A stretch of 28,208 nt of DNA from Bdellovibrio sp. (GTDB taxonomy: Bacteria; Myxococcota; SpSt-1050): NCBI GenBank assembly GCA_020725805.1, contig DYEF01000086.1, forward strand, positions 1 through 28,208. Direction: 5' to 3'. Positions within the stretch are counted from its first letter, which is position 1. Every line of letters starts with the position of its first letter. The position numbers and the translations under genes are program-made. Positions 5,389 to 10,932 of the stretch are shown here, piece by piece. Under the pieces are notes generated by a model. The model saw only the letters and a program-made list of their open reading frames with translations. It was not told where the DNA came from and searched no databases.

Positions 5389-5973
5389 CTATACCAATTT
5401 TTTATTCTTAATGCAATTAAACAATTCAGCCATTCTGTCAAACAGAAGAGGCGAAATTATTATCGAAAACAGGGCAATAAGAAAACCGGCAATCACATCG
5501 AGCGGGAAATGCACCCCCATATATATCCTGCCGTAAGAGATTACAAACCAGTAGACCAGAAGAAGGGCTTTGAATACTATATTCACCTTTCTGAAGAAGA
5601 ATACGAGTATAAGCGAGGCAACAGCAGAATCTCCGGACGGGAATGACATTTTATAATATGGAAGAAGCAGATGAACATCGTCAAGAAATGAGGCCGGTCT
5701 CGGTGCAGCAATAAGAACCTTGAGAGAGATAACAAATAGAGCGGTAATAACAGAAGAAAGAAGAAGGTATATAAATTCGGTTTTTCTCTTTCTGATGAAA
5801 AGGAATATAAGAATAATGACCACCACCTCTGCCCTTCCCAGAAATCTTGCCAGAAGGAAAAAGTTGTCAAAAAACTGAGTGTGATTCCCGTTGATAAATC
5901 TGAAGAGAGCGGTATTTATTCCGAAATTTTCGATATTAAGGCCGTGTATCACAGGATGGATTTCAGAAGCCAA
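5389..5973 (-). CDS. PAP2-superfamily membrane phosphatase-like protein
   Basis: A 194-residue integral membrane protein with about five or six hydrophobic segments. It has the three-part PAP2 acid-phosphatase signature: K85-x6-R92-P93, then PSGD (112-115), then GR-x5-H155-x3-D159 (GRIYMGVHFPLD). Family members remove phosphate from lipid pyrophosphates, phosphatidic acid or lipid A at the periplasmic face. Two positions deviate: the motif-2 His is Asp115 (PSGD instead of PSGH), and the motif-3 Ser is Gly148. The nucleophile His155 and its partner Asp159 are kept, so the protein may be active, altered or non-catalytic. The start is a TTG (5971-5973) with AGGAGG 4 nt before it, overlapping the end of the A24 peptidase gene by 11 nt. 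Confidence 0.88.
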   Translation of the reverse strand: MASEIHPVIHGLNIENFGINTALFRFINGNHTQFFDNFFLLARFLGRAEVVVIILIFLFIRKRKTEFIYLLLSSVITALFVISLKVLIAAPRPASFLDDVHLLLPYYKMSFPSGDSAVASLILVFFFRKVNIVFKALLLVYWFVISYGRIYMGVHFPLDVIAGFLIALFSIIISPLLFDRMAELFNCIKNKKLV

Positions 5974-7033
5974 GAAGCCTCCTGACAGTTAATATAATAT
6001 TGCCAAACCCCGTAAAGTACGTAAAAGCATACCCGATTACTATGTAGGCGGAGAAAGAGAATGTCCGCTGTCTCTCCACATATTCAATCTTATTTTCCTC
6101 AATATACTCCCTGAGGACAGATAACTGCTCATTCGTCAATCCGTCCATAAACATATCACCGAGTCTCTCCGCCATTTCGCCTTTGTCCAGTTTGTTCTGG
6201 GCAATAAACTCCTTTGAGAGTGAATCACCCGGTTTTAGTCTTTCAGCCCTTACGATTTCAACATCGAGGTATTTCAGGACAGATTCATAGAATATCCGGA
6301 AAAGTATTACAATGAAGGCAAGAAGACCAACGGAATATATCTGACCGAGCATCTCTTTTCCGGTCTGGATGTAGAGCATAATAATATTTACTATTACAAC
6401 GAGTATCCCTGCAATGTACATTTTTCTGCCCGTAAATATTCTGGATGCCGAAGACATTACAAAAAAGACCAGAAGCATAGAGAGAAGATTGAATCTGCCC
6501 TGAGGGAGATGAGAGAAGAAATTCAGGTAAATAACCCTTGAAACGAGCATCATAATCAGCGCCGCGGTGATATTCTTCAGCAGACCCCGGGCTGTACTTA
6601 TTATACCTGTCTTTCTGAAATTAACCCTTCTTACTGAATCATATATGAGTGAGATAAGTAAGACAGGAATAACCGGTACAAATATGTTTATCAGAAAAAC
6701 GAATGTCTCATTGAAGATGCTGATCACACTCTCTCCCTCGATGTGGAAGAAGAGAGAGAGAAGCCAGAAGAGTTTTGCGTCACCGGCTGACCAGCCGCCT
6801 ATATACCATAGACCTGTTCCGATTACACCCGAGATGAGAAATCTCAGAAAAAAGACCTGAACCGGAATAAAACTCGCTCCGAATACAGCGGCAACAGATG
6901 TAAAAATTATAACGAGAATAAGGCCTGTAAAGATGACTTCGTTCCTTATTTTTTTGTATAGGATATCTTCGTAGAGTAAAAAGAGGGCGACAAGCAGTCC
7001 GGCAGGTGCTATTATGTTATAAATCAGTCCGAT
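5963..7033 (-). CDS. A24-family (prepilin/preflagellin-type) aspartic membrane peptidase, non-canonical start
   Basis: Polytopic inner-membrane protein of about 356 residues. Reading upstream of the first canonical codon (GTG at 6725-6727), the frame stays open and encodes the catalytic part of an A24 peptidase. With ATC at 7031-7033 as residue 1, the N-terminus is GLIYNIIAPAGLL, the first catalytic Asp is D23 (YEDILYKKIRN) and the second is D85 (GGWSAGDAKLF). The C-terminal half (RLKPGDSLSKEF, GLTNEQLSVLREY, a final hydrophobic segment) resembles the C-terminal domain of archaeal-type preflagellin peptidases. No ATG, GTG or TTG occurs in this frame between an upstream in-frame stop (inside the radical SAM gene) and 6727. 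AAGGAGGG ends 7 nt before the ATC; CTG (7025-7027) and ATT (7022-7024) are further candidates. It overlaps the radical SAM gene by 10 nt and the PAP2 gene by 11 nt. It would cleave a class III signal peptide, but no obvious substrate is in the window. Confidence 0.75.
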   Translation of the reverse strand: MGLIYNIIAPAGLLVALFLLYEDILYKKIRNEVIFTGLILVIIFTSVAAVFGASFIPVQVFFLRFLISGVIGTGLWYIGGWSAGDAKLFWLLSLFFHIEGESVISIFNETFVFLINIFVPVIPVLLISLIYDSVRRVNFRKTGIISTARGLLKNITAALIMMLVSRVIYLNFFSHLPQGRFNLLSMLLVFFVMSSASRIFTGRKMYIAGILVVIVNIIMLYIQTGKEMLGQIYSVGLLAFIVILFRIFYESVLKYLDVEIVRAERLKPGDSLSKEFIAQNKLDKGEMAERLGDMFMDGLTNEQLSVLREYIEENKIEYVERQRTFSFSAYIVIGYAFTYFTGFGNIILTVRRLLGF

Positions 7034-7956
7034 TGCAAAACCCTCCTTATCACGAAAGCGGGGTCGAGAAAGAGCGGATATAATTCCTTCGAACTGTAAT
7101 ATGTATCCATCTCATAGAGACCTGCACAGATCGAATTATATGTGCAGACCTTACAGACATCTGTCTTGCCGTGATAGAATCTCTCCTGAACGATCTTCCC
7201 CTTGTCGTCCAGAAAATTGACGATTCTCTCTTCGCCTTTGATAATCTTCCTTGTCTCTGTCGAATATTCGGCAAACTCCGCCATATAACAGAGTGGTACC
7301 CTCTCGACCCTGAAAGAGTAGCCGGACTTTTGCAAATACTTCAGTGCATTATTAAGGCTCATCTCGAAATCAGTGAGTTTTGCAACAGTATCGGGATTCT
7401 CGCTCACCCTGTTCATTGTCGGGTCTATATTGTTGAATATGAAATGTCTGATGAACGGAAATTTTTCTGTAAGTGTTATCACAATCTCATCAAGGTGGTC
7501 AGAATTATACTTGTTTATGACAATGTTTATCATCGTCATCATATTCAGTCTGCCGGCATTCTGTATCGAGGCAAAGAGGTGTCTTAGGGAATCCTTTTTG
7601 CCTGTCAGAAATCCCTGAAGTCTGTTCCTTACAGTATGGACCGAAAAATGAACCGACCTCAGGCCCGAATCATAGAGCCTTCTGAATAGTTTTTTGTCCG
7701 AGAGCCTCTGACCATTCGTGATAACCCTGACCTCCAGCCCCTTTCCGATACCATATTCGACAATCCTGTCTAGTTCGTCGAGGAGCGTAGGTTCTCCGCC
7801 GGTCAGGATGATACCTCTGTATTTCAATCTGGCAAATTCATCGATCTGTTCTTTTGCCCTATCGAACGAGAGGTCCTTCTCTATCTCGGGATTGGAACAG
7901 AATCTGCACTTCTGGTTACACCTTCTTGTTACCTGAATATACCCGATATTTGCCAT
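7024..7956 (-). CDS. Radical SAM enzyme with C-terminal Cys cluster
   Basis: A 310-residue cytoplasmic protein. The radical SAM [4Fe-4S] motif is C13-x3-C17-x2-C20 (CNQKCRFC), followed by the SAM-binding LTGGEP near residues 52-56. Late cysteines C223, C268, C271 and C277 (PLCYM; CKVCTYNSIC) could hold an auxiliary iron-sulfur cluster, as in SPASM/twitch-type peptide or small-molecule modifying enzymes. I cannot name the reaction. The ATG at 7954-7956 is 3 nt after the stop of the large lipoprotein gene, with no clear ribosome site, which suggests translational coupling. The downstream A24 peptidase overlaps its last codons. It is unlike the other radical SAM protein in the window (16812-18059) in length and Cys layout. 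Confidence 0.88.
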   Translation of the reverse strand: MANIGYIQVTRRCNQKCRFCSNPEIEKDLSFDRAKEQIDEFARLKYRGIILTGGEPTLLDELDRIVEYGIGKGLEVRVITNGQRLSDKKLFRRLYDSGLRSVHFSVHTVRNRLQGFLTGKKDSLRHLFASIQNAGRLNMMTMINIVINKYNSDHLDEIVITLTEKFPFIRHFIFNNIDPTMNRVSENPDTVAKLTDFEMSLNNALKYLQKSGYSFRVERVPLCYMAEFAEYSTETRKIIKGEERIVNFLDDKGKIVQERFYHGKTDVCKVCTYNSICAGLYEMDTYYSSKELYPLFLDPAFVIRRVLQSD

Positions 7957-7959
7957 AGT

Positions 7960-10905
7960 TTACTGGATTTCGGCCGCCCCGGTTCTTTCATAAGAGAATC
8001 CGTCATCAGTACCGTTCAGGTCACAGTAAATCCAAGGACCGTTCTTATACTTTGCCCTGAAATAGTAATAATAACTACCGGCCTTCGTGAATTTAAGAGC
8101 AGCTTTATATTCGTCATTATTGCCTTTGTCTATATTAAATGACGAGGGTATTACAGTCCCTGTTGCAGGGTTGACAGGATACGAATCAGTATATAACAAT
8201 TCGACTGTAATATCCGAACCCTGACCGGCTCCGTCGGTAATACCGCCCAGATAAACCTGAGAATATATATCCCTGAGTTCATTTACCTGTGCCGAATAAT
8301 TCTCGGGCCACTGAATATTGCACCAGTCAACCACATCACCGACAGCAATCCTGCCTAATTTATCAGGAGATATCCCGTTGTCGCTTCCGTCTGCATCGGC
8401 ATAAAGCCAGTTGGTACCATCAAAGGAGTATCTGAAAGTATATGAATAATGACCTGCAGAGCTAATAACCAGTTTTGCCTTATATTCGTCATTGTTTCCT
8501 GCATCGCCGTTATAAACCGCATCTGTCCATTTCCACGATGAATCCTGAGGATAAGTCCCTCTCGGCCCGTAACCAAGCTGTGCATAGATTCCTGCACCAT
8601 GACCGGCATTATCTGTAATCCCCGTATGATAGACCTGTCCGTAAATAAATTCGGTCTCTGTATTCTCTGATACCCGTATAGTATACGGCCATTGCAGATT
8701 ACCCCACTCTGGGAGAGCCGCCGGCGATTCAAACTCGAATGCCTGTGCAAGTGTTGCTGACTGCCCGTCGGGATTTACGACCTTTACATCGACCTTGCCG
8801 GCAGGATGAGACGGGGTCTTGCATACGACTACCGCAGAATTCTGAACAATGACGTGTGATGCCTCCTTTGAACCGAAAAATACCTTAATGCCATAGACAA
8901 AATTCTCTCCGTTAACCTCCACCGGGTCTCCTCCGTAAGTGCTCCCCTTCACCGGATTGACTGAGTTTATTTTGGGAGGATTCTGAGCCGCATCGACAAC
9001 TTTGAGCAGACCTGCCTGGTCTTTGGAAAATCCGTTATCCGAACCATCCTTATCACAATAGACCCAGCTCTTGCCATCGTCCAGACTATATCTGAATGCG
9101 TAGATGAAATTCCCTGTCTTGTCCGGCGTTATCTTCGCCATATATTCATCGTTATTGCCGGCATCAACATTGAAAACAGCGTCTTTCCATTTCCAGATTT
9201 CCACATCATCGTTCAGTGCCCCGTAGCCAAGCTGCGCTTTAATACCACTGCCCTGCCCGATTCCTTCCGTCAGACCCTCTTCGTAGACCTGAGAGTATAC
9301 GGCATCTGACTCATTATTGACAATCACTGTCATCTCGTATGGCCACTGGATATTGCACCAGTCAACCTTCGGATTTGCCTCATAATACGTAAAACCACCA
9401 GAAAGGTTATCCGTCTGACCATCAGGATTTCTGACTATTACATCTACCACACCTTTTTTGTGAGGAGCGGTCCTGCAGGTAAGTTTCGAAGAGCTGACAA
9501 ATGCTACATTCTGGCATTCGTCCCCTATAAATACCTTTGCCCCGCTGACAAAATCCTTTCCGTTTATCGTTACATCAGTCCCGCCGTCTGTAACACCTTT
9601 ATCCGGTTCAACCGAAAGTATCTTGGGTGCCGGTATCTCCTCATAGGTAAATCCGTTACTGAATACAGCCTCCTTATTGTCAGGATTTACTACCTTCACA
9701 TCCACGCTCCCTTTGTTACCCGACGGGCTCTGTACCCCGAGTTCCGATGAACTCAGAAACTGAATATTGTCGGCGACCTTTGCCCCGAAATAGACCTTTG
9801 CCCCCTGTTTGAAATTCTTTCCTCTTACAGACACCTTCGTTCCACCGCTTACAGGCCCTCTGTCCGGCTCTATAAAAGTTATAACAGGAGCGGCAGTCTC
9901 ACCTTTGCCTCTGCCTACGATAATAGTCGTATTTTTGGACTTTCCCCTCGACTCCAGTTCCAGAGATATCTCCTCTTCAAGGAATTCTCCGCGTTTATTG
10001 TAATCCGAATATGCCTTTACGCCCTCGGTTGCGGCATCCCCGTTTACCTTATATTCCACACCATCCTCACTATTGAAGACAAAGACAAACTGGACATGCT
10101 GGTCTATGTACAGAAGCCCGTCGTGGTCACCCAGATGTTTTGAATGAATATAGGTATATACGCCGTCTCCGGCCTTTTCGTCTCCGTTCTGACCGTCGTC
10201 AAGAATCTGAACCGGTGTCCAGGAATTCATCGACCCTTTGATAAATATATTTTCAATCTTTGCCCCGCCTTTGAAATCCTGATGAATATTATTCATATCA
10301 ATAACTATTTTTGCATCCACATCACCGAATTTATGGAATTTTATCCCCTGAGCATCCTTTTTGCCTGTAAAACCCTTTTCAATCACGAACTGACCGTTTG
10401 GACCCTCCCAAATCCAGTTGTTCCATTCGTTTATAAGACCATATTCGAAAGTAATATCATTTGCAGAATCCGGTTTTATATAAATCTCGGTCGAGAAGAT
10501 ATGGTCTCCGGCAGTTGCACCCTCCATCTCGTGTCCGCCCTTTGAAATCGGTCCGTCATCAAACAGCGGCGGAAAGGGGCCATCGGTCGGGAGCCAGGAG
10601 GAAGCGAAGACTGCAATATTGCTCTTTTCGTCCCATACAAATGAGCCGTTCCATTTCATCTGTCCGTCCTTATAGGTCTTATTCTCGGAATCATCTACAT
10701 AGAATGTAACAACGGCATAACCTTCGGGCTTCACCCATCTTGCCCCGCCTGTATCAGTAATAACATCCCCTCCGGTATCCGCAATATTTATGTCAGTAAT
10801 AACTCCGTCTTTACCCACATCATCCGCGCCCGAACCACCACCGTCCGAACATGCAATAAATAACAACAGAATCGCAAAAATGCTTGCAACTGATAAATTC
10901 TTCAT
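7960..10905 (-). CDS. Large multidomain surface lipoprotein with IPT and WxNxQWP repeats
   Basis: A 981-residue lipoprotein (numbering from the ATG at 10903-10905). The signal peptide ends in LLFIAC with the lipid-attached Cys near residue 19, followed by a Gly/Asp-rich linker. Residues about 57-320 hold two acidic beta modules with DDGPISKGGHEMEGATAGDHIFS-type and DDGQNGDEKAGDGVYT motifs. IPT/TIG immunoglobulin-like domains follow at about 339-422, 426-508 and 644-726. Three copies of a module opening with W(C/G)N(I/L)QWP and containing YxQVY, GNNDEY and DGxDxG(F/I)S lie at about 515-638, 734-856 and 860-980. These are probably carbohydrate- or protein-binding. A TTG two codons earlier is open, but GGAGG is 7 nt before the ATG and only 1 nt before the TTG, so the ATG is chosen. 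First gene of the seven-gene operon. No catalytic domain recognised. Confidence 0.87.
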   Translation of the reverse strand: MKNLSVASIFAILLLFIACSDGGGSGADDVGKDGVITDINIADTGGDVITDTGGARWVKPEGYAVVTFYVDDSENKTYKDGQMKWNGSFVWDEKSNIAVFASSWLPTDGPFPPLFDDGPISKGGHEMEGATAGDHIFSTEIYIKPDSANDITFEYGLINEWNNWIWEGPNGQFVIEKGFTGKKDAQGIKFHKFGDVDAKIVIDMNNIHQDFKGGAKIENIFIKGSMNSWTPVQILDDGQNGDEKAGDGVYTYIHSKHLGDHDGLLYIDQHVQFVFVFNSEDGVEYKVNGDAATEGVKAYSDYNKRGEFLEEEISLELESRGKSKNTTIIVGRGKGETAAPVITFIEPDRGPVSGGTKVSVRGKNFKQGAKVYFGAKVADNIQFLSSSELGVQSPSGNKGSVDVKVVNPDNKEAVFSNGFTYEEIPAPKILSVEPDKGVTDGGTDVTINGKDFVSGAKVFIGDECQNVAFVSSSKLTCRTAPHKKGVVDVIVRNPDGQTDNLSGGFTYYEANPKVDWCNIQWPYEMTVIVNNESDAVYSQVYEEGLTEGIGQGSGIKAQLGYGALNDDVEIWKWKDAVFNVDAGNNDEYMAKITPDKTGNFIYAFRYSLDDGKSWVYCDKDGSDNGFSKDQAGLLKVVDAAQNPPKINSVNPVKGSTYGGDPVEVNGENFVYGIKVFFGSKEASHVIVQNSAVVVCKTPSHPAGKVDVKVVNPDGQSATLAQAFEFESPAALPEWGNLQWPYTIRVSENTETEFIYGQVYHTGITDNAGHGAGIYAQLGYGPRGTYPQDSSWKWTDAVYNGDAGNNDEYKAKLVISSAGHYSYTFRYSFDGTNWLYADADGSDNGISPDKLGRIAVGDVVDWCNIQWPENYSAQVNELRDIYSQVYLGGITDGAGQGSDITVELLYTDSYPVNPATGTVIPSSFNIDKGNNDEYKAALKFTKAGSYYYYFRAKYKNGPWIYCDLNGTDDGFSYERTGAAEIQ

Positions 10906-10932
10906 ACTCAAACCTCCGTCTGGCGGAGAATT

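Follow-up and report, generated by a model that had tools for sequence, protein, structure and literature searches.

A conserved AUC codon as the probable start of an archaeal-type A24 peptidase gene in a Myxococcota genus

The peptidase locus and its start region

The window, i.e. the whole stretch of 28,208 nucleotides analysed here, carries on its minus strand a TIG-domain protein gene, a radical SAM gene, an A24 peptidase gene and a PAP2 phosphatase gene in this order (5389–10911). For comparison with the window's own genome (G000), a separate assembly of the same genus (G001; JAOAFA010000077, Deltaproteobacteria bacterium SKW273), which is the only same-genus genome in the comparison set, and a more distant genome of the same order (G002) were used. 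The features of the locus are as follows:

7960–10911, minus strand: TIG-domain protein gene, preceding the radical SAM gene; order retained in G001
7024–7956, minus strand: radical SAM gene, upstream of the peptidase gene, 310 aa; orthologue in G001 82% identical
7041–7048, minus strand: Shine-Dalgarno (SD) sequence AAGGAGGG, 7 nt before the ATC; AAGGAG retained in G001
7031–7033, minus strand: proposed AUC start codon (ATC); same codon in G001, neither genome having a canonical start
7024–7033, minus strand: overlap of the radical SAM gene end with the peptidase start, 10 nt; radical SAM stop codon TGA at 7026–7024
5963–7033, minus strand: predicted A24 (FlaK/Arc_PepC-like) membrane peptidase gene, 356 aa counted from the ATC start
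6965–6967, minus strand: codon of catalytic aspartate D23 in the motif YEDILYKKIRN; invariant in the alignment
6779–6781, minus strand: codon of catalytic aspartate D85, WSAGDAK within GGWSAGDAKLF; invariant in the alignment
6725–6727, minus strand: first canonical codon, GTG (residue 103); 254-aa product without both aspartates
5389–5973, minus strand: PAP2-family phosphatase gene, downstream; overlaps the peptidase gene end, order retained in G001

The minus-strand frame 5963–7111 is open from 7111 to a TGA at 5963–5965, and ATG, GTG and TTG are absent from the 26 codons upstream of the ATC as well as from the first 102 codons counted from it. An earlier sequence-only reading of this DNA had described a frame open for about 100 codons upstream of the GTG at 6727, encoding the D23 and D85 motifs and lacking a canonical start back to the preceding stop, so that translation from the GTG would lose both aspartates; motifs and coordinates proved correct throughout. 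The position of the first canonical codon after D85 also agrees with its expectation that a standard gene caller would annotate a truncated protein: since a rare AUC start cannot be placed by such programs, ordinary gene finders would remove the active site of the peptidase.

Taken alone, the absence of canonical codons over 102 codons is only mildly unusual, with a chance probability of about 0.04 under the codon usage of the window, in which ATG, GTG and TTG make up 3.2% of codons. Because a gap of this length thus has about a 4% chance by codon usage alone, a second genome was needed. Between AAGGAGGG (7048–7041) and the ATC (7033–7031) lies the spacer TTTTGCA (7040–7034), in agreement with the 7 nt given by the sequence-only reading. 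Measured from AAGGAGG, the distance from SD to start is 8, a value that 14 of 143 starts with an SD share (mode 7) and that is inside their range. By itself, the SD is not strong evidence, because AAGGAGGG doubles as Arg-Arg codons of the radical SAM gene in an AGA/AGG-rich window, these two triplets encoding 85% of the Arg residues in those window genes that were counted.

Family assignment and the catalytic half

The window protein alone matches Pfam A24 (PF01478) with 25.5 bits (E = 1.9e-5; gathering score 26.5), and a six-frame genome search raised the score to 28.5 bits, above the cut-off. In an alignment of 24 sequences, which includes distant relatives from archaea (DPANN and others), candidate-phyla bacteria and further groups, D23 and D85 are invariant, the latter as part of the GxGD-type motif WSAGDAK. 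Among these 24 sequences, 23 match A24, 13 Arc_PepC (PF06819) and seven Arc_PepC_II (PF06847), while the window protein by itself matches neither PF06819 nor PF06847. Of the homology to A24 and Arc_PepC families anticipated from the motifs, the A24 part is confirmed for the upstream half and the Arc_PepC part supported indirectly, through the relatives.

The family profile matches FlaK (PDB 3S0X, A24B) at 7e-7, and the same structure was the top fold match of the predicted model (probability 0.97, E 0.42), the match covering the N-terminal part only. The model has a mean pLDDT of 77.5, with a first helix at residues 2–26 and block confidences of 85–96. The distance from AUC to D23 fits the 18–29 codons that separate an ordinary start from the first aspartate in most of the distant relatives. 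With FlaK, the peptidase shares the character of a GxGD-type membrane aspartic protease, the D23/D85 pair and relatives carrying Arc_PepC domains, but differs in its bacterial host, its radical SAM neighbour, its AUC start and a diverged C-terminal half. The best reading of these sequence and model comparisons is an archaeal-type (FlaK/Arc_PepC-like) membrane peptidase, a family defined in part by the cleavage of class III signal peptides. As the same genome has two further A24 genes, both with higher Pfam scores, the peptidase may have its own substrate.

The start region in related genomes

The peptidase gene was found in 3/195 genomes of the phylum, all three in one order. In G001 it shares 58% protein identity with the window protein and follows the radical SAM gene (82%), with the order of all four genes conserved, while of the four-gene set only the radical SAM and A24 genes were found together in G002. 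Another family of the phylum (L063, L064, L066, L067 and L068) has radical SAM orthologues of 50–54% identity with no A24 gene behind them, which suggests that the peptidase was gained or lost beside the radical SAM gene.

The start region of G001 reads ATAAGGAGAGTATTACA-ATC-GGA-ATA-ATC and retains AAGGAG, the spacing and the ATC, and its peptidase frame has no canonical start codon at the ATC region and none until residue 104. This comparison with a close relative, proposed in the sequence-only reading, thus returned the same arrangement, and since G001 shows it too, the AUC form carried by these two genomes is a property of the genus as far as sampled and not of one assembly. In G002, the peptidase can begin at a GTG overlapping the radical SAM stop.

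Over the 90 bases before the ATC, G000 and G001 differ mainly at radical SAM third positions (19/30, versus 4 and 2 elsewhere), whereas from 10 bases past the ATC it is the peptidase frame that the differences fit, with 17/48 at position 1, 6/49 at position 2 and 34/49 at position 3. When extended upstream of the ATC, the peptidase frame showed no protein-level conservation between the two genomes. Constraint on this frame starts at about the ATC rather than upstream. From the ATC to the first canonical codon, pN is 0.22, pS 0.82 and protein identity 64%, compared with 56% for the remainder of the protein, which indicates that this region is under purifying selection. Conservation of the ATC and the SD does not count as independent evidence, because the same bases sit in radical SAM codons, those of the ATC in CAA TCG, and may in part reflect that gene.

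The rarity of such cases was surveyed using 296 non-overlapping reciprocal pairs from sampled stretches that amounted to 1.38 Mb of G000 and 0.89 Mb of G001, the peptidase gene and infC being deliberately included. The survey recorded coding conservation that precedes every canonical codon, and the non-overlap filter was applied against antisense shadow frames. Sixteen pairs were flagged; after reading, conserved coding that lacks a canonical start was left only for the peptidase gene and infC, and the other 14 were put down to a fragment, shadow frames, overlaps with upstream genes or similarity that extends into the leader. It is the shared layout in G001 together with this rarity (2 among 296 pairs) that gives weight to the missing start. 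General use of AUN starts in the lineage was not seen in the 296 pairs. In both genomes, infC (L017, G000:C73; L018, G001:C59) has no conserved canonical start and reads AAGGAGG-TTYGCC-ATA, i.e. AAGGAGG-N6-AUA, so that the genus very probably makes use of AUN initiation. In several other members of the phylum, the infC start was read as AUC or AUU; the AUC stands in a similar layout, as in L009 (GGAGGT-GTAGCC-ATC) and L008 (AGGAG-TCAGTC-ATC), these start positions being unannotated and assigned by reading. As a side observation, comparison of a 12 kb region (L168, G001:C83) with L207 showed that a 442-codon frame of L207 has a G001 counterpart spanning only the part after residue 193, possibly owing to a frameshift, a split gene or an assembly error in G001.

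Initiation at the AUC codon and its possible role

The lack of a canonical start in two species, the conserved layout of AUC and SD, the onset of frame constraint at about the AUC and the complete catalytic half make it highly probable that the product of the locus is a complete prepilin/preflagellin peptidase of archaeal type (A24, FlaK/Arc_PepC-like), whose translation begins at a conserved AUC within the final radical SAM codons. AAGGAGGG, a strong SD within the radical SAM gene end, would place the ribosome on the AUC, and because the radical SAM stop codon sits 4 nt downstream of this triplet, ribosomes finishing the radical SAM gene could re-initiate there. In an E. coli reporter, addition of an SD raised re-initiation more than three-fold (PMC2268962). 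The initiator tRNA would decode AUC with a third-base mismatch, A and U being paired and C mismatched, and for this reason weak initiation, with partial rejection by IF3 in the manner of infC, is to be expected. Start codons whose third base pairs weakly are disfavoured by IF3 in a reconstituted system (PMC10158994). Weak initiation at the AUC would hold the peptidase scarce relative to its neighbours; by analogy with such systems, low expression and a link to initiation fidelity, as the sequence-only reading had also considered, are plausible.

To our knowledge, few bacterial genes besides infC retain a non-canonical start. Conserved cases are already known in infC, sigR, pncA, ccpN and cvfC1, and the peptidase probably joins this short list as a weak-start gene. 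The gene for IF3, infC, starts with AUU in E. coli, ATC in Streptomyces and AUA in S. aureus and resembles the peptidase gene in its AUN start and strong SD, as does the infC of the same genome; there, IF3 regulates its own synthesis, whereas any IF3 control of the peptidase would be by extension. In Streptomyces, where infC has ATC, sigR is an operon gene with a conserved non-canonical start and a misplaced annotated start, but its codon is GTC, its protein is unrelated, and its repression by IF3 was established experimentally (PMC5472188), a control that for the peptidase is only inferred. S. aureus retains AUA (ccpN) and AUU (cvfC1) starts with strong, well-spaced and extended SD motifs and lowered yield (PMC13009471); the codons are others, and initiation was mapped and yield measured there, while the peptidase start is proposed from sequence comparison. 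The AUU start of Borrelia burgdorferi pncA, an enzyme whose essential N-terminal part is likewise stripped by ordinary annotation and which is truncated in databases, was in contrast to the peptidase start proved by genetics, biochemistry and structure (PMC13398362). If the proposed start holds, an archaeal-type peptidase would provide a natural example, other than infC, of a conserved AUC start. The gene represents a clear, testable candidate, and others like it can be found in unannotated genomes by a simple check of where conserved coding begins relative to the first canonical codon.

Whether an AUC start would serve a purpose is a separate matter. There is close to an even chance, in our estimate, that the start is real but without regulatory role, having arisen by drift or being held by the overlapping radical SAM codons, with the strong SD and re-initiation compensating. 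The CAA TCG bases are unchanged in G001, and an AUG in place of the AUC would change the penultimate Ser of the radical SAM protein to Trp. However, other families show little conservation of the radical SAM tail, so that this constraint looks weak, and yield is indeed lowered by other non-canonical starts that are conserved (PMC13009471). More tentatively, the AUC may be a maintained regulatory device that ties peptidase synthesis to the IF3 level and to radical SAM translation, in which case processing of the peptidase substrate would follow the state of the translation machinery.

A separate start would be dispensable if a programmed −1 frameshift near the radical SAM end, with AAGGAGGG as stimulator, produced a radical SAM–peptidase fusion. 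Relative to the radical SAM frame, that of the peptidase is indeed −1, and both genomes have the SD-like sequence a short distance upstream, but neither species has an X XXY YYZ slippery heptamer (GGG TTT TGC AAT and GAG TAT TAC AAT regions), no RNA element folded better than shuffles, and the G002 peptidase has a GTG of its own as start, overlapping the radical SAM stop; this reading is therefore very unlikely. Slightly more improbable still is translation from the internal GTG (6727) into a short protein without catalytic aspartates, with the upstream half as a relic, given that this half is the more conserved one, with pN far below pS, and both aspartates are invariant. That a base error in the draft assembly (115 contigs), where single-base errors can occur, conceals an ordinary ATG, GTG or TTG is hardly credible, as a separate genome at 58% protein identity has the same codon, SD core and spacing and no canonical codon.

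Of the explanations offered in the sequence-only reading, namely a rare AUC, CUG or AUU start or a base error, AUC was thus retained and the error set aside, and a CUG start at codon 3 was disfavoured by the ATA of G001. The fourth codon is AUN in both genomes (ATT/ATC) but lies 16 nt from AAGGAGGG. Burial of the SD in a conserved hairpin was likewise rejected, since the folds differ between the species and are no better than shuffles. A GAGGG-like sequence precedes the GTG near residues 103–106 in both genomes (6725–6727 in the window and its G001 counterpart), which speaks for some use of this codon, and a shorter form of the peptidase may arise from it as a minor additional product.
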